IMG/VR virus record: IMGVR_UViG_3300044491_002959
Span: 1-25,048 of that record
Origin: a virus
DNA: 25,048 bases
Direction: 5' to 3' (one strand)
Shown: piece by piece, positions 2,193 to 16,974 of the stretch
Numbering within the stretch: the first letter of the stretch is position 1
How the letters are laid out: each line of letters begins with the position of its first letter
Position numbers and translations under genes: made by a program
The notes under the pieces: model-generated
What the model saw: only the letters and a program-made list of their open reading frames with translations
The model's database searches: none
Told to the model about the DNA's origin: nothing

Positions 2193-2666
2193 CTAGTTGT
2201 CAGAATCTTCTTCAAGTTCTGCAAAAAATTCTGCCAAAAAGTCTTTCTGCTCAAGAGGCTTATCATTATCGATGTTTGATATCTCACCGTCTTCAAAAAA
2301 CTCTTTAATAAAGTCTTCTACTTGTTGATCAACTGATGGAGGTGCTAACAGTTCATCAAACTCTTCTTCAATGCATGCGCGATGAGCTAGAGCTTTTAAG
2401 TAATCAATAGTAGATTCATCAAGCGTGGTTGAGTCTTCGTAAATAGTTTTTGCCTCTGAAACTATTTTTTGATTTCTCTCTTCATAATATACACTAATTA
2501 CATCACCGCTTACCAGTTCTAAAATTTTAGGTTCTTGTTCTCCTATTAAATCAAGAGGAATTGCTCTTGTAATTTCTACAGAGTCTTTTCCATTAGCCAT
2601 ATCACGATAGCTAAAGAATGCTTGTTTTTGTTTATTCTCATCAATTTGTATTTTATAAAATATCAT
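2193..2666 (-). CDS. Small acidic protein of unknown function
   Basis: 157 residues from ATG 2666. The nearest purine-rich site (AGGA) is about 12 nt upstream, so the ribosome binding site is weak. The C-terminal half is strongly acidic, with two similar short helical stretches, DFIKEFFEDGE and DFLAEFFAELEE, separated by about 20 residues. It has a single cysteine and no signal peptide or membrane segment. I do not recognise the family. It sits between two fibre genes, so a fibre-assembly chaperone or an attachment adaptor is possible, since such chaperones are often small, acidic and encoded next to the fibre they fold. This is inference from position and charge only. The gene ends 8 nt before the next start. 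Confidence 0.7.
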   Translation of the reverse strand: MIFYKIQIDENKQKQAFFSYRDMANGKDSVEITRAIPLDLIGEQEPKILELVSGDVISVYYEERNQKIVSEAKTIYEDSTTLDESTIDYLKALAHRACIEEEFDELLAPPSVDQQVEDFIKEFFEDGEISNIDNDKPLEQKDFLAEFFAELEEDSDN

Positions 2667-2675
2667 TTTATATCT

Positions 2676-4169
2676 TTATCCTGTTCTAGTAAATTCACCA
2701 GTAAAACTGGTTAAATCAAATCCAGAGGTGGGTTCGCCTTTAGCATTTAGAGTAGCACCGTCTCCCCCAAAAGTTGAATAAACATCCCAGGGATCTCCAT
2801 CAAAGTTTGTTGTCTGTGTAACATCATGCCAAATCCAAACAGCTCCTGGAGCTCCAGAGTTGTTAGGTCCATCAGCCACCTGATCTCCACCACCAGAACC
2901 CCAACCATAGTCTGTAGGAACCCAAGCGTTTCCTTTTGCTCCTGAAACGTGTGGATATTCTGATGCCGTACCATCTACTCGACGAAGAGGAGAACCAGAG
3001 CCACTTGCCTGACCTGATAAACCACCGAGTGCCCCACCTTCCCACTCTAACACCTCATCAGCGCCTATATTAGCAGCTGACGCTGTCTGATCTCCGTTTA
3101 AAATTTCTCCAACAGCAGTTGAGTGATTTGCGAGGATCCATCGACCTCCGCCCCCTCCTCGTATTTTAAGATATAAATCAGTCGCAAGACTTGTTTTAAT
3201 TGCAGGACCACCTGTTCCGTCAAAATCATAACTTCCTGAGAGAGTAGAGCCTGCAGTAGCAACAACTTGAGTAGTACTATTGACCGCTGTTACTGTGTAA
3301 CTTTGGTTGAATGAAGCTGCTGATGAATTTGAAAGAGTAAATGTATCGTCAACAGATAATCCGTGAGTATCTTGAAAAGTAATAGTAGCTGATAAACTAA
3401 CGTAGGTAAATACGGTAACAAAATTACCAGTAGTAATAAAACCAGCATAAGCATGAGGCCCATGAGAAGCATCATTACGAGGTCCCCCAAAACCTCCTTG
3501 ATAGGCACCTATTGTTCCAGCAGCACTTATAACGTAAGATATGTTGGTTCCAATAGAAGCACGTTTCTTAAACTTAATAAAAGCTCCTGAGTTTCCACCG
3601 TCTGAACCCTCATTACCCCACCAGCCACTAGACCCACCTCCAGTTGCCATACCAATAACCACATTACCACCAATAGTAACAGGCCAAGTGCCTCTTTCAT
3701 TTACTCCTGTTAATATACGAGTATTAACAAGATCGTCACCACTTGTAACATTTTTTAAAGAACCATACTCATAGGTTAAATTAGCAGAGGTTCCGTAGGA
3801 AGATGCATAGTTTGGAATCAAAGCACCTGTGCCTGCTGAATAACCACTAACAGAAGCTCCATTTTGAAATGCGCCTCCAGAAATAGCGCCTCCTGTTATA
3901 TTACCACTACCCACAATCTGTAAATTAATTCCTGCTGTATTATCGTTTTCAATAGCTGTACTTCCATTACCCGCAATATTATAGGTGCTTGCATCTAGTT
4001 TAAGAAATTTATGAGTCGAGCTATGATCAACAATAATCGGAGTAGAGATGTCAGCGGTAACAGAAAGTAACTGAATAGGAAGTTTAAAACGTCCAGCTCC
4101 CGCTTTAGTAGATAAAGTGCCTCCTGTGCTAAAATTTGTTTTATTTAATCCTTTTGCTACTGTAAACAA
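2676..4169 (-). CDS. Glycine-rich tail fibre/adhesin-like protein
   Basis: 497 residues. The start is TTG 4169, placed behind a perfect AGGAG with 5-nt spacing. The next methionine in frame is near residue 175, so TTG is the only credible start. Residues 1-160 are beta-rich. From about 175 onward there are glycine-rich patches (ATGGGSSGWWG, GGFGGPR, RGGGGGRW, WGSGGGDQ) separated by ordinary sequence. Known: glycine-rich patches form polyglycine helices in some phage adhesins such as T-even gp38. Here the resemblance is compositional only. The middle (about 255-310: TITFQDTHGLSVDDTFTLSNSS) looks like a beta-sandwich insertion. It is probably a receptor-contact or fibre-shaft protein. No cysteine is present. 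Confidence 0.72.
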   Translation of the reverse strand: MFTVAKGLNKTNFSTGGTLSTKAGAGRFKLPIQLLSVTADISTPIIVDHSSTHKFLKLDASTYNIAGNGSTAIENDNTAGINLQIVGSGNITGGAISGGAFQNGASVSGYSAGTGALIPNYASSYGTSANLTYEYGSLKNVTSGDDLVNTRILTGVNERGTWPVTIGGNVVIGMATGGGSSGWWGNEGSDGGNSGAFIKFKKRASIGTNISYVISAAGTIGAYQGGFGGPRNDASHGPHAYAGFITTGNFVTVFTYVSLSATITFQDTHGLSVDDTFTLSNSSAASFNQSYTVTAVNSTTQVVATAGSTLSGSYDFDGTGGPAIKTSLATDLYLKIRGGGGGRWILANHSTAVGEILNGDQTASAANIGADEVLEWEGGALGGLSGQASGSGSPLRRVDGTASEYPHVSGAKGNAWVPTDYGWGSGGGDQVADGPNNSGAPGAVWIWHDVTQTTNFDGDPWDVYSTFGGDGATLNAKGEPTSGFDLTSFTGEFTRTG

Positions 4170-4174
4170 GTTTA

Positions 4175-4179
4175 CTCCT
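4175..4179 (-). promoter_or_regulatory. Ribosome binding site deciding a TTG start
   Basis: AGGAG on the minus strand, 5 nt before TTG 4169. It overlaps the TAG stop of the preceding fibre gene. It supports TTG as the start of the glycine-rich fibre gene, which has no in-frame ATG or GTG near its N-terminus. Confidence 0.8.
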
Positions 4180-5086
4180 ATGAGGTAACAGTTTCACTAA
4201 AGTACCAATATCCTGCATCAGCATCGTAAACTCCACTTGCAAGTTGAGCTGCTGATCCAAGAGAAATACCTTGTGACCCTGCTGACCATGAAATAGTCAT
4301 AGTACCGTTAGAACGAATATTTATAGTTTGTCCATCAAACTGACCGGTGCTAACAGTTAGTGTACCTGTTCCACCGTGTTTAACAAAATTGGCAATTGAA
4401 AGAGCATTGATAGATACTGTATTAGAATTTAAAATATTTTGAACATTTTGATAAATTTTTGCTTGAGTAACTGCTGCATCATTTATCTTGGCTGTTGTTA
4501 CAGCTGAATCATTAATCTTTACAGTTGTAACAGCTGAATCATTAATTTTAGCTGTTGTAACATTTAAATCTGTAATTTTAACTGTGGTAACACTATTGGT
4601 TCCAAGCATTGCAGAAGTTACAGACCCATTTGTTGGTGGAATACCGATATCTTTTACGCCTGTCATAGCTGCTGAATTATCTGTAATAAGATATAGTCGA
4701 GCATTAGCAGAAATGGCACCAGAGGATGACGGAGTTGCTACAAGTTCACCTATCTCATAAGATGCAATATTAGCAGCTAAAGCTTCAATTCCGTTCTCTA
4801 CTCTATTACCAATACCTACACGAGTAAAATTACCCCCAACAGGAGAAGATTTAACGTGAATAGAGTCTGAAATATAGAGTGCATTGGTTTTTGCACTTCT
4901 AAAAAGCATTCCATCTTGTTCACCTTGGTTTACGCCAGATGAAACAATATTTGTTGCAGCTGGTATAGCTGCTGATTTAAAATTAGTTAAAAGAGATCGT
5001 AGTGAATTGTTAATTTGACCTCTTGCAACGTTTAGTGATGTACCAGCTGTTGGTTCAATATAAGTATTTGAATCGACTAACGGCAT
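4178..5086 (-). CDS. Tail fibre protein with five 10-residue repeats
   Basis: 302 residues from ATG 5086, behind AGGAG with a 5-nt spacer. It starts directly after the stop of the J-like gene. Residues about 165-216 hold five tandem decapeptides of the form VTTAKINDSA (variants VTTVKITDLN, VTTVKINDSA, VTTAKINDAA, VTQAKIYQNV). Known: short AKI-type repeats with regular spacing are common in phage fibre shafts, where they form repeating strands or turns in a trimer. The N-terminal 80 residues may attach to the tip, since this is the first fibre gene after J. The C-terminal 80 residues (HGGTGTLTVSTGQFDGQTINIRSNG...) look like a beta-rich head. No cysteine is present. The fibre call is good; the exact role is inferred. 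Confidence 0.78.
   Translation of the reverse strand: MPLVDSNTYIEPTAGTSLNVARGQINNSLRSLLTNFKSAAIPAATNIVSSGVNQGEQDGMLFRSAKTNALYISDSIHVKSSPVGGNFTRVGIGNRVENGIEALAANIASYEIGELVATPSSSGAISANARLYLITDNSAAMTGVKDIGIPPTNGSVTSAMLGTNSVTTVKITDLNVTTAKINDSAVTTVKINDSAVTTAKINDAAVTQAKIYQNVQNILNSNTVSINALSIANFVKHGGTGTLTVSTGQFDGQTINIRSNGTMTISWSAGSQGISLGSAAQLASGVYDADAGYWYFSETVTS
4437..4589 (-). repeat. Five tandem 30-nt coding repeats
   Basis: Five imperfect units of 30 nt encode the decapeptide repeat of the fibre gene. The central units, built around a shared acagctgaatcattaatc core, are nearly identical in DNA, which would allow copy number to change by slippage or recombination. Boundaries are approximate. Confidence 0.7.
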
Positions 5087-8000: not shown

Positions 8001-10795
8001 CCTAAAAAGGATCCGTCATTAACTTCTAGCACATGTTTAGCAAAATTTTCATCATGAATAACATTTAAGCCTTCCACAACTAATCTTACATTACTAGTAC
8101 CGTCTCCATTATCTATTTCTGAATAAGCATTACATAAAAGTTTAATTTCACCAGCAAAACTAGAAAAGCCATTTTTACCAGTAATTGTTGAAGTGATTGC
8201 TCCGTTACTTATTGCGCTTGTATTATCAACTGTTAATGAAAGAACACTAGAAGAAGAATTATTGATCAGAGTACTTGCGACTGGAAGGGAAACAAAATAT
8301 TCTGTTGAAAATCCTTGCTGATAGCCGAGTCGATCAGTTTGATTATCTATAACAGCATCGAATACAATAGTTCCATCTAAATTACGTCTTAATTGTTTTT
8401 GTAGAGTAAAGTTTGGAGCTGGTGGAGGAGAAAAAGAACTTTCAATATCAGTATACGCAGTTGGAGTATAATCAATGAATGAATCAGAATCTACATACAC
8501 ATTAGAAACATATTCTTTTGCGATAATATTTACTTCTTCATCAGCAGTTTCTCTTTCAATTTCTGCAACAGTAAATAGTTTGCCAGCTTTATTAGTATAA
8601 AAGTTTCCAGGATTTTCCCATTCACCAATAGTCCACAAATCACCTTTTGTTGGAGCATTATTAGAAGTAAAAGTACTATATGAATCAACAGTTTTAGTTA
8701 TTGGGTTATATCTACCTGTAATAGTAACATTTGCTATATCAAAACCTGTACTAACATTATCTGTAGAAGTAAGAGTAAAAGTTGAATTACTTAAAATATA
8801 AAGATCTACACGATCAGAGTCAGTTTTAATAACTCGCAACGCAATTGGATAAGTATTTGCAGTAAACGTTGTGTTAGAGAGAGTTGGTTCAGTAAAATGC
8901 TCTAAATATACATGAGACTTACCAGAATCAGTAGAAGAATTTTGAGTTACCTTACCTCCAAACCCATAATTAATTCCTGTCATGTTTTGAGAAATCGAAA
9001 TTACATCACCTGGTGCTAGATTTAATGCATCAGTTGAGGTAGTAAAAGAAACAACTCGTCTTAAGTAGCGAGAAGCTGCTATCTGATATTGAGCAAAACG
9101 AAGTGCCTGGCTCCTACGAGTTACACCAGCTAAATCGAGAGATTCAATATTTTCAATTGTGCTTCTATCTGAACCATCGTTCACATCAACAGTATCAATA
9201 CGAGCAACTTCTCTTTTATAGTGATTTGTTGGCTCGATATAACTAATATCAACGCCAGTAATAATATCGCTCTCTCTACCGCCACTAATTTGAAATGATC
9301 CTGCTTTTATATTCGTTTCATTAAATAGCATTGTTGGAAGTTGATCAGGTTGATCAACAGCAAGAGATATTTTACCAAAACTGTGGATTAAAGTTCCTCT
9401 AAACGAAGCAGCAATAGAATTTAAAACTTCAAGTGTCTGTTTTTGATCAGATATGAGAATATCACATATAAATCTGCGCTCTTTAATTGCTGTACCAACA
9501 GGAATACCTTGTAAAGTTTTTCTTACACCAGTGAATGTGCCTCTAGGTTTATGTGTAAAAGAACCGTCAGATTGACCATCAACACCAATAAACTCACCAG
9601 TAATAGCGTCACAAGCATCACAATACTGGGCAACTTGATAAAACTTATACTTATCTATATTATCTTCTGGAATTCCTAGTCCATAAGTTGAATTAGTTAA
9701 GATGTCATAAATAATCCAAACTGGATTTTGTGTCCAAGAATAAACAAAAGTTCCATCCCAAGTTCCTACATAAATTTGTGGGTTTGCATCAGTTAACTTT
9801 GTAGCAGTGCCAGACTTTTGAAGGCTATATCCGTTAGTAGTATAACCATAACTTCCTGTTTCAGAAAGTTCAAGCTCACGCCAGTCAATTTGTCCATCAG
9901 TTAGAATGGGTTGGTTATAATTTGAAGGTACTTTTACAAGCAGTCCTTTAACTAGTGAACTCATTGTTGGGATTGATCCTACATGTTCATTAATTGCTTT
10001 TAATGCATATCCTACAAGAGCAGTTCTAGGAAATGTTTGTGGAGTGTTTTCAATCTCATACCAACCTACTGCCTGAATATTAGAAGTAACACGAGAATCA
10101 GAAGACTCGTCAGAGGTTTTTTCAATAGTGAATCTATATCCGTTTTCTGATTTCGATGCTTCAGGTATTTCAAACGTGACGAGTCGTTTGTAAGGAGTAC
10201 TTGTTTTACCATTTATTGTAACTGTGAGTGGGTCGCCAATTTGTGTTGATCCTGTGCTGTCAAAAAAGGTTACTTTTATTGTGAGAGAATGAGCTTTGAT
10301 ATTACCATTATTATCTTGTCTTTGAAGAGCGTTTACTACTAGAATAATAGATATTTCATCCCAAGCTCGCGCACTAGTTTCTTGAAGTAGAACTTTAGAA
10401 GCGGGAATTCCATCAACATTACCTTTTTTAAGGGTTACAGGAGACGAAAAAGTTTGAGGAGTAACAGTCTGCTGCCCAAATTTTCGTAATACAGATTGGG
10501 TTGTAGTGCCAGTTCGTGAGAGAGTTTTAAATACATCAGTATTTTCCGAACCATCACCGTCTAACTTAACTAAATCATCAATAGAATTTTCAGTAATTTC
10601 AATATCTTGAGGACCATTAGGGTTAACTCTATAAACAGGTCCTTCACCTAATGCTGTTAATAGAAATAAGATATCTGTTGAAAAAAGTGTATTCGGATCT
10701 TCAGAGTAACCACCGCCTCCACCTTTACCGCCTCCAAGACCGCCTTTAATTTGAGGAACTTTTTGATTATTATAAGTTGTAAAATAACGTCTCAT
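5087..10795 (-). CDS. J-like central tail fibre / host specificity protein
   Basis: 1902 residues from ATG 10795, overlapping the upstream stop as ATGA. The N-terminus has the lambda gpJ signature: a glycine run (GGGKGGGGGYSEDPN), then ILFLLTALGEGPV. Further conserved J-family stretches follow: GLLVKVPSNYN near residue 290, WTQNPVWIIYDILTNSTYGLG near 355-380, and RFAQYQIAASRYLRR...LAPGDVISISQN near 560-610. These form the hub-like part at the end of the tube. Near residue 1060 is a small module (YIDGVEQ) shared with other proteins here. Fibronectin type III-like segments lie at about 1255-1350 and 1380-1483. The C-terminal 400 residues are beta-rich and probably face the receptor. Lambda gpJ is 1132 residues, so this one has about 770 extra, mostly C-terminal. 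Known role: tip assembly and binding of an outer-membrane receptor. Confidence 0.93.
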   Translation of the reverse strand: MRRYFTTYNNQKVPQIKGGLGGGKGGGGGYSEDPNTLFSTDILFLLTALGEGPVYRVNPNGPQDIEITENSIDDLVKLDGDGSENTDVFKTLSRTGTTTQSVLRKFGQQTVTPQTFSSPVTLKKGNVDGIPASKVLLQETSARAWDEISIILVVNALQRQDNNGNIKAHSLTIKVTFFDSTGSTQIGDPLTVTINGKTSTPYKRLVTFEIPEASKSENGYRFTIEKTSDESSDSRVTSNIQAVGWYEIENTPQTFPRTALVGYALKAINEHVGSIPTMSSLVKGLLVKVPSNYNQPILTDGQIDWRELELSETGSYGYTTNGYSLQKSGTATKLTDANPQIYVGTWDGTFVYSWTQNPVWIIYDILTNSTYGLGIPEDNIDKYKFYQVAQYCDACDAITGEFIGVDGQSDGSFTHKPRGTFTGVRKTLQGIPVGTAIKERRFICDILISDQKQTLEVLNSIAASFRGTLIHSFGKISLAVDQPDQLPTMLFNETNIKAGSFQISGGRESDIITGVDISYIEPTNHYKREVARIDTVDVNDGSDRSTIENIESLDLAGVTRRSQALRFAQYQIAASRYLRRVVSFTTSTDALNLAPGDVISISQNMTGINYGFGGKVTQNSSTDSGKSHVYLEHFTEPTLSNTTFTANTYPIALRVIKTDSDRVDLYILSNSTFTLTSTDNVSTGFDIANVTITGRYNPITKTVDSYSTFTSNNAPTKGDLWTIGEWENPGNFYTNKAGKLFTVAEIERETADEEVNIIAKEYVSNVYVDSDSFIDYTPTAYTDIESSFSPPPAPNFTLQKQLRRNLDGTIVFDAVIDNQTDRLGYQQGFSTEYFVSLPVASTLINNSSSSVLSLTVDNTSAISNGAITSTITGKNGFSSFAGEIKLLCNAYSEIDNGDGTSNVRLVVEGLNVIHDENFAKHVLEVNDGSFLGLKGDDRITVPLKEKTSVNSSRDFVAYANDLVAVSANIVTYNKSGDTIDIENTLTGALNLIDVLPAAPFYVTLNQLLDSRFYANNSFYVSGSMRQISLQGNLTVNAGESEYIDLPVRVRNIGEVRLYIDGVEQSTGQFSLNKNSTFKDNVQYTVGTSDITYRVELDHYTVPAIEVGDNLQAGAGNVFSVVNTSYDTTSATYNVQLTTNSIYRIQFADSPTSNLSSIAFVNVSPNPVGTINNVLANTCTFDYDETVYPGTFKLANSGVYDLQVNADYDRVFLNEDLTIKNLPQGRVSVKARNINPFKRTSPFVEKNITISPLPIQKVNNLDVRESLYREQNSGVAVRVTVLFDHINSQEVTDYEISYKLDSVDAVGTDDGGTDLTSFNTVKVPATGVDDDGKIRFTVNGINRGLSSQTNSVTFRVTPLNKNLRGSTSSISKSIVGKTAPPSNIFNFTGGQQTDQITLFWEYVRQNQELVDLDLKEVVIRRIQGIYSATLENFLAGSSYVTVAAGVNRKSIPIDIFGTFTYLVRTRDTSGNFSEGVVGITLTTARPKRTTVVAAYSEDSPPVDFSDITNSNSDEENFPSFANSNTGGLSYSSIDSPFDSSLVDNANGTSTGFSAIGGSPTDLLADGSGTYITQIRDFGSTITGQIAIDLLATQAIQTTYNDQHEHVVESTTEEGPVAGNVLVDSSFGGIGHIIGFANSTPLNFRYDANNMTRMSGSSSGNVYAIHMHGNFVNDESNANVFALIAGTINSNAIALGETFYANGDSTGSNVYANLAVAGSSYYLVNLKQYNDFGASETYAGSLGALSQQTFIRTTTSDNTTLYYSNGNVNLASFTGSEVNEGYIPYEAGSRTFRQFQIKFVVNNSQEDEYDFTIDQFRYTVEKEQTIFETTVTYNAEPTEVDYSTFGFLNRPRINIMPIDTATAQTALVTAGTNTSVSFKLYDVENNALVPTASAVQVQVTAIGV

Positions 10796-11550
10796 GTTGC
10801 AAATCTCGATTCAACGGTAATGTTATCATCACGTCCATGATCTACTGTATCTAGGTAGCCACTAATAAGCTGTCCTGGAACACGGTGCATACCATAGATA
10901 AGCGGAATAGGAGTACTACTTGATATCGTATTTTGAAGACCTCCGAACATATCATTTGATCTCACATTTTGATCAGTTTGTTTAATGTCTTGGCGTTGTG
11001 TAAAAAGCATAGTGACAAGAGCTAGTCCTGCGTTCACAGCAAGAGTTCCAGCAGAGATGCCTAACCCAGCTGATGCAGCGGATCCCCCACTTAATGTAGT
11101 ACTCATAGCTATTGTTCTTCCAGCTTCTGCTCCAACTGTAGTTCCTGTATACCCAGAAGCAGCAACAGCAGAAGACCCTCCTCCTGCAAAAGCTCCCATT
11201 ACATAAGGAGCCGCAAAATAAGCAGCTGTCGCAATAGCTGCATAGGTTAAAAGTTTTTGAGTGCGTTTTCCGCCACCGCCTACGATGGCAGGTACGATAT
11301 GAAAAACATCATCTGTTTTTACAGATTTAATAAATAATTCTTGATCAGAAATTGGTTTAAGATTTTTATCTAAAAGAGCATAACCTTCTTGACACTGCCC
11401 TTGCTCAATAGCTTTAGCATAACGCTGAAACTTTGGATGCATTGCTCCAAGATAATAAAGAATATCAGCATATTTTTTAAAGTCAGCTTTATATTCAAGT
11501 TCTGTAAAAAGAGATTTAAAAGCTGAATGTATTTTAATTTTAGCAAGCAA
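10792..11550 (-). CDS. I-like tail tip assembly protein
   Basis: 252 residues if translation starts at TTG 11550, which has AGGAG 7 nt upstream. A longer frame from TTG 11574 (260 residues) has no such site. The N-terminal 75 residues look like the beta-grasp domain of lambda gpI (KIKIHSAFKSLF...). It is followed by FHIVPAIVGGGG, a typical gpI motif. A hydrophobic Ala/Gly-rich segment (about 100-190) follows and could insert in a membrane or pack in the tip. The C-terminus has the conserved SNDMFGGLQN...PIPLIYG motif. Known: gpI is needed for lambda tip assembly before J acts. The gene overlaps the JAB gene by 11 nt and J by 4 nt, as expected for coupled translation. Confidence 0.88.
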   Translation of the reverse strand: MLAKIKIHSAFKSLFTELEYKADFKKYADILYYLGAMHPKFQRYAKAIEQGQCQEGYALLDKNLKPISDQELFIKSVKTDDVFHIVPAIVGGGGKRTQKLLTYAAIATAAYFAAPYVMGAFAGGGSSAVAASGYTGTTVGAEAGRTIAMSTTLSGGSAASAGLGISAGTLAVNAGLALVTMLFTQRQDIKQTDQNVRSNDMFGGLQNTISSSTPIPLIYGMHRVPGQLISGYLDTVDHGRDDNITVESRFAT

Positions 11551-11911
11551 TATGCTTCTCCTGAAAATCTGCAAAAATTAAAGAATCTATATCTTCGTTA
11601 TACCAGTATATGTAAAATTTATTGTTAAAACCAACTAAAAATTTATACTCCTGAAATGCTGCACCTATTTTGTCCTCTTGACTTGGAATAGGGTTATCTT
11701 GGCCTGGGTGTGAATGAAAAATTCCCCATATGTTACCATCATTCTCAACAAGAGCTGCCGGATCTAAATAAAAAGTTTCTTTTGGATTATCACTAATGTT
11801 TTTGCAGGGAATGTAATTAAAATCTTTTGTAATAATACCTACCGCTTCAAGAGGGTAATCTCTTAATGCATGATTATTCATATCTTGTTTAATTTTTATA
11901 AATCTTTCCAT
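11540..11911 (-). CDS. JAB/JAMM metalloprotease-like tail protein (gpK N-terminal half equivalent)
   Basis: 123 residues from ATG 11911. The JAMM zinc motif is visible: E22 in YPLEAVGII, then H66-S-H68-P, S77 and D80 (HSHPGQDNPIPSQED). The gap between H68 and S77 is 8 residues, one more than the usual 7, but all ligands are present. Known: lambda gpK fuses an N-terminal JAB domain to a C-terminal NlpC/P60 domain and takes part in tail tip assembly. Here the JAB domain stands alone and is encoded after the NlpC/P60 genes, the reverse of the order inside gpK. It overlaps the upstream gene by 16 nt and the I-like gene by 11 nt. Confidence 0.9.
   Translation of the reverse strand: MERFIKIKQDMNNHALRDYPLEAVGIITKDFNYIPCKNISDNPKETFYLDPAALVENDGNIWGIFHSHPGQDNPIPSQEDKIGAAFQEYKFLVGFNNKFYIYWYNEDIDSLIFADFQEKHIAC
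11558..11562 (-). promoter_or_regulatory. Ribosome binding site deciding the TTG start of the I-like gene
   Basis: AGGAG on the minus strand, 7 nt before TTG 11550 and inside the end of the JAB gene. It favours TTG 11550 over the upstream TTG 11574. The first in-frame ATG is deep within the beta-grasp domain. Confidence 0.7.
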
Positions 11912-12318
11912 CGTGCTCTCTTAATTGTATATTGTTTAAAATATTTATGATATGTATGAACACTACTAGGTCTGTTCTCAAGCATATGTAATATTTTATC
12001 ATCACCTACGTACATAGCAACATGATTTGTAACATTAGTAGAACCTAAACTCATAGCAATAAAATCAAAAGGTTTTAATTCATTAACCTCTAACCAATCA
12101 CCATTGTTAGAGGCATTTAAAAAGTATTGTTCATGAACTTTTTGATACCATTGATCATCAACTAGTTTTAAAAAATCACTACTAGTATAAGGAATCGTTA
12201 TGTCCTTCTCTTGTTTAAGAATATATCTTAAAAGAGTGTAACAATCCATACCAGATTCAGGATTTTCTCCAAATAGTTTATAGGGAATGTTTATATATTT
12301 TTCATACCATTGATTCAT
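11896..12318 (-). CDS. NlpC/P60-type cysteine peptidase, second copy
   Basis: 140 residues from ATG 12318, overlapping the upstream peptidase gene by 17 nt. Seen: catalytic-type Cys26 in ESGMDCYTLLRYIL, His99 in TNHVAMYVGDDKILH, and a possible third polar residue, His111. This is the NlpC/P60 layout of a DC motif followed by H-hydrophobic-YVG and LH. Known: this fold cleaves peptidoglycan stem peptides, and the domain forms the C-terminal half of lambda gpK. It probably sits in the tail tip and may open the murein during DNA entry. It is clearly related in layout to the gene just before it but differs in sequence outside the motifs. Confidence 0.86.
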   Translation of the reverse strand: MNQWYEKYINIPYKLFGENPESGMDCYTLLRYILKQEKDITIPYTSSDFLKLVDDQWYQKVHEQYFLNASNNGDWLEVNELKPFDFIAMSLGSTNVTNHVAMYVGDDKILHMLENRPSSVHTYHKYFKQYTIKRARWKDL

Positions 12319-12691
12319 GGCGATATAAGGCGTGCAACCTCTCTACCCAATACTGGGATAAAGTGTCAACACGAGAGACTCCCCCCTCCTCTATGTGAAG
12401 CATTTGTGTTGGTGCTAAAAACATTGCAAAATGTGTAATACAATCTGTTTTTGTTGACTTAAATGCTATTACATCATAGTTTTTTGCTTCTGTCAATTTT
12501 ACTTTTACAGCACACGTTGAAGCCCATCCATCTACATCTGTAGTAGAAAAATGCTTCATCCAGGCTCTTGATTTAGGGTAGGTAGGAAGAGGAAAGTTGA
12601 TTAAAAGTTCTTGAGCATAGAATTGACGAATCAGCTCAATACAATCAAATATACCATACTCATGAGGTATTCCTAAATATTTCTGTACCAT
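12302..12691 (-). CDS. NlpC/P60-type cysteine peptidase, first copy
   Basis: 129 residues from ATG 12691, overlapping the radical SAM gene by 19 nt. Seen: Cys17 in YGIFDCIELIRQFY, His87 in ITHFAMFLAPTQMLH, and His99 as a possible third catalytic residue. The spacing matches the following gene, so the two look like paralogues or two independent acquisitions of the same fold. Sampled lines are visibly richer in G+C here than in the second copy. Known role of the family: cleavage of peptidoglycan peptides, and in lambda-like tails it is part of gpK. Two short single-domain copies in a row are unusual for a siphovirus tail. Whether both are active or one is structural cannot be told from sequence. 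Confidence 0.84.
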   Translation of the reverse strand: MVQKYLGIPHEYGIFDCIELIRQFYAQELLINFPLPTYPKSRAWMKHFSTTDVDGWASTCAVKVKLTEAKNYDVIAFKSTKTDCITHFAMFLAPTQMLHIEEGGVSRVDTLSQYWVERLHALYRHESMV

Positions 12692-13884
12692 TCTGCTAAC
12701 TCTGGAAATACGGATTCAAAAGATTCATTTCTAAATAAATCACTTCTTAAATTCATTTCTTTAAATTTACTTTGTAGATTAGAATCATCTTTAGAGTTCA
12801 TATGCTTAAGTGAATCTAGTATAGTGTTTATTTCATAGGTACTTAAACCTTCAGATGAGAGTAAAAATTCTTTATACTGCATATTAATTTGTTTTTTAAG
12901 TTCTTTTGGTAAAATTGAAGTTGATTGATAGTTGGGATTTGTTAAATTAGTAATGCTAAAGGATTTTCCTAAAGATTTAATCCACAAAATAAGTTCTATA
13001 TTACTTGAAATTGAATACACGCTACTAACTAACGAAAATGTCTGAATGTATTTAGAAAATTTTATAGAATTTTCTTTAAAAAGATTAATATCTAATCCTT
13101 TTCTACCGTATTCAGCCCTTTCGTCAAATCCTTCAATACTAGGCCAAAGTTCGACCTTTTTAAAACTATTCCATAATTTTTCAATATCATAAGATTTGAA
13201 AGATCCCTTATATGATAAATTAGTATTATATGATAAGTCTATATTTTTAGAGCAACCATTATCAACTAAAAACTGTAACATTTTGTAATGACCTTCTTGA
13301 ACAAAAGGCTCTCCTCCAGCAAAATACAGTACCTTGATATATTGCTTTATTTTGTTTATATCATTCCAAAAATCAAGATTATCGGTCCAATGATCATAAT
13401 GGTTAGGACTATTACTATCAAGTATACCGAAGTATTTATCTTCTTTAGCCCACGAAGAAGAAGCGTAAGAACCACACATTCGGCAGCTAAAGTTACACAA
13501 GTTACCAAACCTAAAATCTAAATATATTGGAGGATTATTTACAGAACCGTCGCTATTAGTAATATCATAGAGTTTTGAATACTGCGAGTATTTTGAATTC
13601 ATACGCTGACGATGACTTTCAATACCTTCTTTTTCCCAGTCATAACAAACTCGGCAGTCTTTAACAGGAATATTTGAAAGCATTGATAGTCTTGCAGATT
13701 TAATGTGAGCAGAGTTAAATGCTTGCAGAGGAGATAATCCTTTACCAAAAAGATTGCCACTATCATTTAAGGTAAAGCAGCATAAAGCATACTCACCCGA
13801 AAGATCACCATACTGATGAATCCAGGGTAATATACAACGTTTATCCTCTTGGGATTGTTCGTCCTGTGCCAGGAAAGCCTCCAA
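12673..13884 (-). CDS. Twitch-domain radical SAM protein embedded in the tail operon
   Basis: 403 residues if started at TTG 13884. The N-terminus carries a twitch-like cysteine set: C17 in RCILPWIHQY, C35-C36 in YALCCF, C77 and C80 in DCRVCYDW. The radical SAM core has C130, C134 and C137 (GNLCNFSCRMCG) and a good GGEP motif (LYFAGGEPFVQ). Known: N-terminal twitch radical SAM proteins form a named group, mostly of unknown substrate. The start is unsettled. No ATG or GTG precedes C17. TTG 13884 lacks a ribosome site, whereas CTG 13872 has GGAGG 5 nt upstream. The gene overlaps the L-like gene by 44 nt in the +1 frame and the next peptidase gene by 19 nt. Sampled lines are more AT-rich than the flanking tail genes, suggesting later acquisition. 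Confidence 0.88.
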   Translation of the reverse strand: MEAFLAQDEQSQEDKRCILPWIHQYGDLSGEYALCCFTLNDSGNLFGKGLSPLQAFNSAHIKSARLSMLSNIPVKDCRVCYDWEKEGIESHRQRMNSKYSQYSKLYDITNSDGSVNNPPIYLDFRFGNLCNFSCRMCGSYASSSWAKEDKYFGILDSNSPNHYDHWTDNLDFWNDINKIKQYIKVLYFAGGEPFVQEGHYKMLQFLVDNGCSKNIDLSYNTNLSYKGSFKSYDIEKLWNSFKKVELWPSIEGFDERAEYGRKGLDINLFKENSIKFSKYIQTFSLVSSVYSISSNIELILWIKSLGKSFSITNLTNPNYQSTSILPKELKKQINMQYKEFLLSSEGLSTYEINTILDSLKHMNSKDDSNLQSKFKEMNLRSDLFRNESFESVFPELAEWYRNI

Positions 13885-15373
13885 AATGAAGTTGATTGTT
13901 TCGAAGGGTGCATGCTTGGAGAGATTTAGAACAAATATCTCCTGATGAATCTGCAGCTATTTCGTTGTTAGCTGCAATTGGGTTAGTATTTGCAACTACG
14001 CCAGTAGTTGCTCCAGGAATTTGACCACCGCCAGGACCTGGGTATTGGCATTCTGGGCCTTTATACGTCCATTGACATGTGTTTTTATAATACTTACGTT
14101 TTGGAGTGACAAGTTTAAAGTATTGTAACCAAGAAATTAAACCGAAAGTCGCGACAGAATCGTTTAATTTCTCAAGTTGATCTATCTTGAATTTATCTTC
14201 AATGTAAGATTCTGAATCAGCCTCACTATTAACAATATAGAGGGGATCTCCAATCGTTACATTAGCGTCTAATTCATTTGAAAGAAAAATATAACTGTTT
14301 TCTTCAATTGCTTGAATAGTAGCTTCAGTGGTTCCAATTTTTGCTCTAACGTTATCACCAACTCTATAAGGCAGAGCATTAAACACTTCTATAACATTTG
14401 AACGAATAGACTCAATAGAGCTATATTCAGGCCAAGTATCTAAAAAATGAGCAAAAGTAGTTTTAATCTCTACTACACCGCCTAATAAGTCTCTTGTATC
14501 CATTTTTTGCTCAACCCACGTGCCGCCGACATTTAAAGTTTGTGTCCTATCAAAAGCAGCGTTAGAAGTGCCATAATAACCAACTATATCAGCGTCATAG
14601 TCTAAACCATCAGGATTGCCTGTAGTTCCTGGGACAGTACGAGGATCAATTCCATTTACTAATTCACCGTTTACGGTCGCGGTGACAGAGTTAGAAGAGT
14701 TATTACCAGCTAAAAAAGGATCTTCAACTAGTCGAGTAATAATGTTATCTACATTAAAAATATCAAGAGTAATTTCTTCAATAGTTCCTTCTGAACCTTG
14801 AGTTAAAGTAGATGAGTTGACAGGGAAAGGTATGTAAGAAGTTCCACCAAGAGATACATTGTATAGTATATCAGAGGTTAAATCACCCACAATTTCAGCA
14901 AAACGAATAGGAAAATAATGAGGCCAAGCTCTACCTGCACCTTGTCCAGTTGGGTTGCCAGCTGCATTAGGAGGATACCACTCACCAGGATAATAAACCG
15001 AGTAGAGACGAACAATCGGATTTTGAGTAAAAGCGTTCTTTTCTGCTTTAAACCCACTAGGAGTAATTGCAGACACTGTAGCAATAGCTGTAGTAGAGTT
15101 GGCAGAAAATACATTACTTAAAAAATTAGCTGTAGTTAATAACCCGTCTCCACCAGAAGCTGTAGTTGTAACAATGGTATTAGAATGTATTATTTCAGAA
15201 GAAGAAAACTCTTGTTGAAGATTATTAAGTTTTACCTTAAGCTCATTAGTGGTAGTATTAACATTGGCAATCGTACCTGTAGTTGCAGTTGTATTACCAA
15301 TCAAAACATTTGTAGTTTGAAATGGTGCAGCATTATCAACAGTTAAAATTACGTCATAAGAGCGAGCGCTCAT
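13841..15373 (-). CDS. L-like tail tip protein with iron-sulfur cysteines
   Basis: 510 residues from ATG 15373, overlapping the upstream stop as TAATG. The C-terminus has the lambda gpL pattern: C433-QWTYKGPE-C442, C481 and C488, then FGGFPG. Known: these four cysteines hold a 4Fe-4S cluster in lambda gpL, a tip component made before K, I and J act. Lambda gpL is 232 residues. The extra length here is mostly N-terminal (residues 1-190: beta-rich, Thr/Asn-rich) plus an insertion around 300-400 with VRAKIGTTEATIQAIEENSYIFLSN-type strands. The part at about 195-280 (EEITLDIFNVDNIITRLV...) looks like the conserved L core. Its last 44 nt also encode the start region of the radical SAM gene. Confidence 0.9.
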   Translation of the reverse strand: MSARSYDVILTVDNAAPFQTTNVLIGNTTATTGTIANVNTTTNELKVKLNNLQQEFSSSEIIHSNTIVTTTASGGDGLLTTANFLSNVFSANSTTAIATVSAITPSGFKAEKNAFTQNPIVRLYSVYYPGEWYPPNAAGNPTGQGAGRAWPHYFPIRFAEIVGDLTSDILYNVSLGGTSYIPFPVNSSTLTQGSEGTIEEITLDIFNVDNIITRLVEDPFLAGNNSSNSVTATVNGELVNGIDPRTVPGTTGNPDGLDYDADIVGYYGTSNAAFDRTQTLNVGGTWVEQKMDTRDLLGGVVEIKTTFAHFLDTWPEYSSIESIRSNVIEVFNALPYRVGDNVRAKIGTTEATIQAIEENSYIFLSNELDANVTIGDPLYIVNSEADSESYIEDKFKIDQLEKLNDSVATFGLISWLQYFKLVTPKRKYYKNTCQWTYKGPECQYPGPGGGQIPGATTGVVANTNPIAANNEIAADSSGDICSKSLQACTLRNNQLHFGGFPGTGRTIPRG

Positions 15374-16974
15374 TAGTCAAAAACCTCTTGAAGTGTGAAT
15401 GATACGGTATAAAAATTATCAATTAGTCTAGAACCTACAGAATATGTCTGTTCAATTGATAAAGGTCCTTCAAATCTTGTAGTAATTGTACCACTCTCAT
15501 TGATATGTGACAAGTCAAAACTGAATGATTCAAATTGTCCACTTCTTGCATTATAAAAGTTCTCTATCGCTGTTTTTTCAACCCCAGTTACTGCTGTATA
15601 TGATAGTTGATAGTTACGTTTTGAACGACGAGATTTTAACCGACGCTTTTCATACCCAGCTTGTGATGCAAATGTTGTAACATCAAATGTTCTTTGTGAC
15701 GCAATACCATTATCAGGTTTACGATCTGCCATTGAAGTAAAGCGGTCAATAGTTTCAACTGATGAATCAAATACTCTAATAGAAAGAGAATCTTCTTGAT
15801 CAACAGAGCCAAGAGGCGCACCACTTATCTGTGTTAAAGCAGATGTAGAAGTAATAGGAGCATGAGTAGCAGATTTATAACGAGTAGCATGAGAAAGTCT
15901 AACAAACGAAATATCTCCAGTCAATAACTCGGCTCCTACAGAATTGTTTGAAGCAATTGATACATCTCCACCAGTAGCTTGGTTAGCATACATTTCTGCA
16001 TAAGAAACATTTACATTGTTCACATACAGCCGTAAATTAGCAAAGTTTGCATCATAAGATACTGCAACATGATAGTTAGATCCACCATTAGCATTACCAC
16101 CGTAAACTTCTGTAATTTCTCCTGCAGTACTTACCACCATCCCAATATTTGAGTTTGATCCTACTAAACGAAGCACATAATAGTTAGTACCATCTCCATA
16201 TCTAGCAAATAGAGTTTGATTTGATGTCATTGTTGTGCCTGTGTCAGGTTTTACCCAAGTATCAAGCGTGAATGATCGATCTTGAAGATTAAAATCATCA
16301 GATGAAGGAACTGTTAAAAAGTCGTCAACCCCATCAAAAGAGATATAAGTATCGTCTCCAAGTGTAGCATATGTAGCTGTATCATTATGAGAAACTGTGT
16401 GGGCTGATACAGATTCATCTGTTAAGTTTGATGTAAAGTTAAGCAGCAGCTTTGTTGCTGTATTGTCACCTATATCAATACCGCTATATCCAAGAGTTGT
16501 AGAAGGATAAACATAAGCATCAGAGTTTTGAAGCACCCCTGATACGAAAACTTGAATTTCCGACACAGAAGACACATCTACACTAGCTGGTAAAGCAAAA
16601 GCTTCTTGATGAGCATTAATCAAATAAGTATTACCGTTCACAACTGCAGTTGATGTATTAGAGTACTCTTGTACAAAAGTAGAGTAGGTTGAACGTGTTT
16701 GTACGAGTTTTGCTGGAATTGACACTGTTTGAAGTGTTAAGTTAGACGCATCAGGAGGAGTTGTGAATGATACAGTGGCTCCTGAATTAGATATAGAATA
16801 CGAATCTGTAGCCTGTGCAACACCATCAATAAAAGCTGATACTTCACCACGATGAGACACAGCTGCTGCAAGATTAAATTCAGTTGTAGAGCCTCCAGTG
16901 CTAGAATAGGTTATTGTACTAGTTACTGGAAAAGCTGTTAAAGTTGCTGTTGCGTCATTAGGATATGTTGCCAT
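15373..16974 (-). CDS. M-like distal tail protein with LamG-type insertion
   Basis: 533 residues from ATG 16974, with a GAGG site upstream and a TAATG overlap with the tape measure stop. Residues about 440-533 match the lambda gpM type (RNYQLSYTAVTGVEKTAIENFYNARSGQFESFSF ending in VSFTLQEVFD), known to sit at the tip below the tube. In front lies a LamG/concanavalin-like jelly roll at about 205-370 (YISFDGVDDFLTVP, FTLDTWVKP, YHVAVSYD, LRLYVNNV). Before that are two small modules of the DGVxQ type (FIDGVAQ near 50, FVSGVLQ near 140). Lambda gpM is about 109 residues, so roughly 430 residues have been added at the N-terminus. LamG folds often bind sugars, so a decorated tip that touches surface glycans is likely but unproven. 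Confidence 0.85.
   Translation of the reverse strand: MATYPNDATATLTAFPVTSTITYSSTGGSTTEFNLAAAVSHRGEVSAFIDGVAQATDSYSISNSGATVSFTTPPDASNLTLQTVSIPAKLVQTRSTYSTFVQEYSNTSTAVVNGNTYLINAHQEAFALPASVDVSSVSEIQVFVSGVLQNSDAYVYPSTTLGYSGIDIGDNTATKLLLNFTSNLTDESVSAHTVSHNDTATYATLGDDTYISFDGVDDFLTVPSSDDFNLQDRSFTLDTWVKPDTGTTMTSNQTLFARYGDGTNYYVLRLVGSNSNIGMVVSTAGEITEVYGGNANGGSNYHVAVSYDANFANLRLYVNNVNVSYAEMYANQATGGDVSIASNNSVGAELLTGDISFVRLSHATRYKSATHAPITSTSALTQISGAPLGSVDQEDSLSIRVFDSSVETIDRFTSMADRKPDNGIASQRTFDVTTFASQAGYEKRRLKSRRSKRNYQLSYTAVTGVEKTAIENFYNARSGQFESFSFDLSHINESGTITTRFEGPLSIEQTYSVGSRLIDNFYTVSFTLQEVFD

Follow-up and report, generated by a model that had tools for sequence, protein, structure and literature searches.

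The window analysed here, which is the entire 25,048-base virus record IMGVR_UViG_3300044491_002959, carries its tail genes on the minus strand, and among these, between the gene for an L-like hub protein and those equivalent to lambda K, lies an ORF for a radical SAM enzyme that overlaps the two neighbouring ORFs by 44 nt and 19 nt respectively (Table 1). The enzyme matched the model NF033640 for twitch domain-containing radical SAM proteins (N_Twi_rSAM) over its full length, with residues 14–400 aligned to positions 2–398 of the 398 in the profile (323.9 bits against a cut-off of 170; E = 1.5e-96). The complete radical SAM core, the N-terminal cysteines and both overlaps described in the original prediction were all present in this ORF, and we confirmed that the gene is intact and real.

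Table 1. Features of the tail-tip region of the window.
Feature	Positions	Strand	Remarks
Tape measure protein position, 1823 aa	16974..22445	-	
M-position distal tail protein	15373..16974	-	DUF2460-like core (aa ~410–533), N-terminal insert
Phage_tail_L / Fe-S hub protein, 510 aa	13841..15373	-	PF05100, TIGR01600
GGAGG, Shine-Dalgarno-like	13878..13882	-	5 nt before CTG, within L coding sequence
Proposed CTG start of enzyme (replacing TTG 13884)	13870..13872	-	Junction conservation
Radical SAM enzyme, N_Twi_rSAM family	12673..13884	-	ORF 403 aa, TTG start; NF033640 match
NlpC/P60 protein 1 (K equivalent, part 1)	12302..12691	-	Overlaps enzyme gene by 19 nt
NlpC/P60 protein 2 (K equivalent, part 2)	11896..12318	-	
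JAB-domain protein (K equivalent, part 3)	11540..11911	-	
I-like tail assembly protein	10792..11574	-	phrog_32, E 8e-17
J-like central tip / receptor-binding protein, 1902 aa	5087..10795	-	Follows I; homologous region in all relatives

The core motif C130-x3-C134-x2-C137 and GGEP at residues 190–193 were unchanged in all 60 distinct tail-tip homologues and across the 67 sequences aligned. The N-terminal C35, C36, C77 and C80 were likewise kept in 60/60 homologues and C17 in 59, missing only from a sequence truncated at the 5' end. The motif of SPASM/twitch auxiliary clusters is CX9–15GX4C plus CX2C, and the enzyme N-terminus fits it with C17-X12-G30-X4-C35 and C77-X2-C80, both invariant. These cysteines precede the core, whereas SPASM and twitch domains lie C-terminal to theirs, and the C-terminal part of the enzyme is helical with no conserved cysteine; the same cysteine pattern occurs in other phage members of NF033640. 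Since dN/dS is 0.18 (437 pairs), indicating purifying selection, and the catalytic residues are invariant, the enzyme is not decaying, and the same dN/dS together with an identical gene order in independent contigs argues against a chance locus. An AlphaFold2 model built from 67 homologues was confident (pLDDT 92.3, pTM 0.89). Its top viral structure matches were radical SAM proteins from uncultured phages (TM up to 0.82), and its fold relatives in the PDB were weak (TM 0.27–0.41), with BlsE first, followed by SkfB, SuiB, EpeE and others, among them AprD4, which like BlsE acts on sugars. A PDB sequence search with the enzyme returned no relative beyond a marginal viperin match.

Conservation across the L/enzyme junction suggests that translation probably starts not at TTG but at a CTG 12 nt further in, which would shorten the overlap with L to 32 nt. 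The TTG is doubtful because it lacks a Shine-Dalgarno sequence and because the CTG at 13872 is better conserved; in one relative (L080) the upstream TTG is lost and the CTG kept. Among 93 distinct junctions, 61 lack an ATG or GTG close to the conserved cysteine, and in 59 of these a CTG closely follows GGAGG or GGGGG, an arrangement found in only one of 22 junctions that have an ATG. The codon pair GGA and CCT in L, which creates the start signal, was present in 163/197 enzyme-positive L genes and in 0/12 enzyme-minus ones (redundant counts). For want of a good ATG we also considered a programmed +1 frameshift leading from L to the enzyme. Many loci, however, have TTC-C in place of the TTT-C slip site, and the frameshift was rejected, since CTG behind GGAGG explains the junction better.

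The original prediction had placed the enzyme between the L and K equivalents of a tail tip. The L side of this held, the hub ORF matching PF05100 (E = 4.8e-24) and TIGR01600 (75.2 bits; cut-off 70.75), but K is not one gene: its equivalent comprises three genes, NlpC/P60, NlpC/P60 and JAB, in a domain order opposite to that of lambda K. This split arrangement (window 11540–12691) is conserved across the lineage, and the catalytic-type Cys and His are conserved in both NlpC copies. In L, C433, C442, C481 and C488 match the ligands of the lambda gpL [4Fe-4S] cluster in order and outer spacings, the lambda positions being taken from PMC10721106. The core of the M-position protein scored 27.1 bits against DUF2460, below the cut-off of 30.4, and adjoins the hub as RcGTA g12 does. 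Its insert consists of two related beta modules (aa ~13–175) and a LamG lectin-like domain (aa ~200–386), matches Laminin_G_3 (47.6 bits; cut-off 27.6) and has jelly-roll lectin folds as its Foldseek matches. That M also matched binding domains of clostridial neurotoxins reflects this common fold at ~10% identity and does not indicate a toxin. Further along the operon, the Gly/Ala-rich part of I (window 10792–11574) differs locally in length between the window and the near-identical L014. The region after J (window ~2550–4633, comprising the end of a fibre gene and ORF 2676–4169) is highly variable among relatives, and the third gene after J encodes anything from about 327 to 813 aa and drew almost no matches in the databases.

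The relatives compared are fragments of uncultured viruses, mostly marine, and related loci do not count as independent samples; the collection scans were pattern-based, and locus counts refer to the matches listed. The enzyme gene was not scattered at random places among these relatives, the outcome that the original prediction had named as counting against it: a JAB-based scan, which does not depend on the enzyme, found it between L and NlpC in 64 of the 67 informative loci listed, and among the matches listed it lies next to 124 of 143 distinct L genes counted, the gene following L having been inspected wherever a locus of this L family extended downstream. The overlaps with both neighbours and the start signal inside L are also conserved among relatives, in keeping with the suggestion that the enzyme is made together with the tip through joint translation. 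Loci with this tail but no enzyme were L170, L171/L174, L204, L205, L248, L263, L265, L278 and L287, besides a distant outgroup (L289/L291–L293). No family member was found elsewhere in the enzyme-minus records, including 51.8 kb of G037, the 4.2-kb L263 being searched with a protein query only. The outgroup falls outside the enzyme-positive lineage, seven enzyme-minus loci form a nested clade (support 94/82), and L278 and L287 are single losses; the tree thus suggests a probable single acquisition of the gene near the base of the lineage, followed by at least three losses. In the outgroup loci L289 and L292, JAB directly follows L and the two NlpC genes are lacking.

Presence of the enzyme goes with an enlarged M. 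In all 60 distinct enzyme-positive loci where M is complete, the protein bears the insert and is at least 316 aa long, whereas M in enzyme-minus loci is 126–139 aa (138–139 aa in the nested clade) except in L278, which lost the enzyme but keeps the insert (324 aa). The same is probably true of L287, in which M is cut by the contig end and its visible start resembles an insert-bearing M. Enzyme and insert were lost together on one branch, that of the nested enzyme-minus clade, so that their link rests essentially on one joint loss. The outgroup has neither, although a related module occurs at the N-terminus of L in L289 and L292. The dependence is one-way, the enzyme implying the insert and not the reverse, and we regard it as a lead towards a substrate; a Fisher value for the association disregards shared descent and overstates the link.

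Comparison of closely related loci showed that the enzyme gene moves as a cassette between phages whose tips are otherwise near-identical, as judged from DNA and protein identities. Between the window and L002, DNA identity was 98–100% through M and L, 68–82% in the enzyme and 99% again from the enzyme end, while L003 and L004 had the reverse pattern (enzyme near 100%, L 61–83%) and L022 and L025 carried identical enzymes beside L proteins 83% identical. In 84 pairs with L at least 90% identical (pairs not independent), median identity of the enzyme was 65%, with 61% of the pairs below 70%, against medians of 92–98% for M, NlpC1, NlpC2, JAB, I and J, with 0–3% of pairs below 70%. Enzymes only 46–52% identical occur beside tips 92–96% identical, and neither M, L, I, JAB, NlpC nor J changes in step with them. 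The trees conflict with strong support, the enzyme joining L003, L004 and L027 (97/91) and L joining L004 and L025 (100/99). Co-exchange of J with the enzyme version was looked for and not seen, even at the J C-terminus. Fibre co-exchange could be examined in a single usable pair, G006/G020, in which the third gene after J was 36% identical and the first two 86–89%. A handful of sites in L, NlpC, JAB, I and J were constrained solely in loci with the enzyme, none of them in a convincing motif.

The tail-tip enzymes group in a single clade (100/100), separate from the bacterial members and from those of other phages. We sampled 35 of its members, counting the window, and 34 occupy the slot. The remaining one, L092, is nested within the clade and comes from a phage record with polymerase, helicase, glycosyltransferase and carbamoyltransferase genes and without this tail. 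Its gene (L376:3273–4472) sits among glycosyltransferase, epimerase-like and carbamoyltransferase genes in this unrelated phage. Bacterial family members adjoin other radical SAM/SPASM genes (19/96 neighbours) and family-2 glycosyltransferases, and N_Twi-like radical SAM genes (L294–L371) are common in genomes of Bacteroidota, Bdellovibrionota and Elusimicrobia. Other marine phage records (L108, L110, L112) hold tandem arrays of at least five divergent N_Twi-like radical SAM genes, and such arrays adjoin further enzyme and sugar-type genes; one large related phage record also has a gene for an SPFH/Band 7 protein (L120:12130–13017; PF01145, E = 2e-30). Among cultured phages the enzyme had a single match, at 27% identity across half of its length, and an initial scan of genome contigs yielded no verified relative. 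A search for prophages with this L through 385, 369 and 345 genomes sampled from three bacterial classes found none; the search profile did match known virus records, and none of the genomes searched was positive.

Slot position, overlaps and fidelity along the clade speak for a role of the enzyme in the tip or in host recognition, while its exchange without change in the tip, together with L092, argues that it need not read tip sequence. We tentatively place first the reading that the enzyme makes a late, radical-based covalent change on an adhesion component of the virion during tip assembly. On this reading, the enzyme is part of the host-recognition module at the tail tip of one large uncultured siphovirus lineage. 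With its SAM-cleaving [4Fe-4S] motif and N-terminal twitch-type cysteines, all under purifying selection, it would be translated late, together with the tip proteins, as the overlaps suggest. It would then alter an adhesion part of the virion covalently by radical chemistry as the tip is assembled. The best candidate substrate would be the insert-bearing distal tail protein at the M position, or a fibre seated nearby; inserts in distal tail proteins are known adhesins (PMC10688798, PMC7296036). The change would tune the surface held by the phage, and versions of the enzyme, which pass as a cassette among phages with near-identical tips, would turn over because hosts differ. Several of the nearest folds (SkfB, SuiB, EpeE) modify peptides, in favour of virion modification, though BlsE is a small-molecule enzyme. 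Modification of a tip protein would fit the position and the co-loss with the M insert, but allele exchange and L092 do not demand it.

A close rival, possible though in our estimate doubtful, is that late in infection the enzyme acts on a sugar of the host surface, or on a precursor of such a sugar, which would keep progeny from sticking to the dying cell or its debris or stop competitors from adsorbing. Adhesin and receptor-changing enzyme would then be inherited as a single host-recognition module, which would account for the place of the enzyme in the tip operon, and versions of the enzyme do turn over independently of the tip proteins. The sugar-gene neighbours of the nested L092 and of the bacterial members, the lectin-like M insert, the weak matches to BlsE and AprD4 and the presence of radical SAM cassettes and glycosyltransferases in pelagimyophage host-recognition clusters (PMC7029224) all point the same way. 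Yet the slot has no sugar gene nearby, such a role has no need for translational coupling to tip genes, and J and M stay constant across enzyme versions. We give a small chance to a viperin-like antiviral or counter-defence enzyme, acting through a modified nucleotide or on a host factor and hitch-hiking in the tail operon. Diversification confined to the enzyme gene has the look of an arms race, and there is weak similarity to prokaryotic viperins; but the enzyme scored 19.4 bits against the viperin model NF038283 (pVip; cut-off 180) and 18.9 bits against PADLOC pVip, and the matches span about 65–110 residues of the radical SAM core only, so that we rejected viperin membership. The N-terminal twitch cysteines are invariant in the tail-tip enzymes, and a late tail-tip position would be odd for such a role.

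It is similarly improbable that functionally equal versions are exchanged without adaptive meaning, the enzyme being an ordinary conserved factor in tip assembly: purifying selection and the same catalytic residues in all versions speak for this, but no neighbouring gene is exchanged alike, though each is flanked by equally conserved DNA. The original prediction had also proposed that the enzyme may help to mature the neighbouring iron-sulfur tip protein. For a role in inserting or maturing the [4Fe-4S] cluster of L speak the adjacency of the genes and the four cysteine ligands kept in L. We know of no radical SAM enzyme that matures another protein's [4Fe-4S] cluster in this way. This proposal is now unsupported and very improbable, because all four cysteines persist in the L of phages that lost the enzyme, such as L170 and L171, and the lambda and RcGTA hubs get their clusters without one (PMC10721106, PMC7296036).

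The gene order around the enzyme is that common to lambda M-L-K-I-J and RcGTA g11–g15, in which tape measure (g11), distal tail protein (M, g12), Fe-S hub (L, g13) and NlpC peptidase (g14) are followed by J (PMC7296036). The window differs from both in the inserted radical SAM gene, the split of K into NlpC, NlpC and JAB, and an M with an adhesin-like insert. The evolved distal tail proteins of lactococcal skunaviruses are likewise enlarged by a carbohydrate-binding-type insert (PMC10688798), with no radical SAM gene mentioned in the abstract; the core in the window is DUF2460-like. The radical SAM cassettes reported from host-recognition clusters of pelagimyophages (PMC7029224) probably belong to the same enzyme family, as we read L108, L110 and similar loci, but in those T4-like phages they form arrays that vary and lie next to tail fibres and sugar genes, whereas here the gene is single-copy in the tip operon. 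Compared with other N_Twi_rSAM proteins, with which it shares the full-length match and cysteine pattern, the tail-tip enzyme forms its own clade in one siphovirus tail slot instead of radical SAM/glycosyltransferase arrays. SkfB, SuiB and EpeE have the radical SAM core and auxiliary-cluster motif in common with the window enzyme, which carries that motif at the N-terminus and is 12–22% identical to them. Open-access papers yielded none on a radical SAM enzyme in a tail tip, and for N_Twi_rSAM we found no close solved relative in the PDB and no reported function.

Few parts of phages are as well studied as their tail-tip operons, and a radical SAM enzyme was not previously known there; in more than 100 distinct uncultured virus loci it is a stable member of the operon. 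New here are its exchange as a cassette, the probable CTG start and at least three losses, which our trees suggest, with one co-loss of the M insert. The broader proposal that the tail-tip clade adds a non-standard covalent change to a virion adhesion protein, with versions swapped like serotype genes and altering the behaviour of the same tip, is in our view rather unlikely as a whole; if true, this would be, to our knowledge, the first virion protein matured by radical SAM chemistry. The tail-tip enzymes give a first handle on the N_Twi_rSAM family. As the sole tip gene with swapped versions, the enzyme offers a testable case for a chemical layer in host recognition over and above protein sequence, and its fixed slot and swapped versions point to a chemical step in how these phages meet their hosts.
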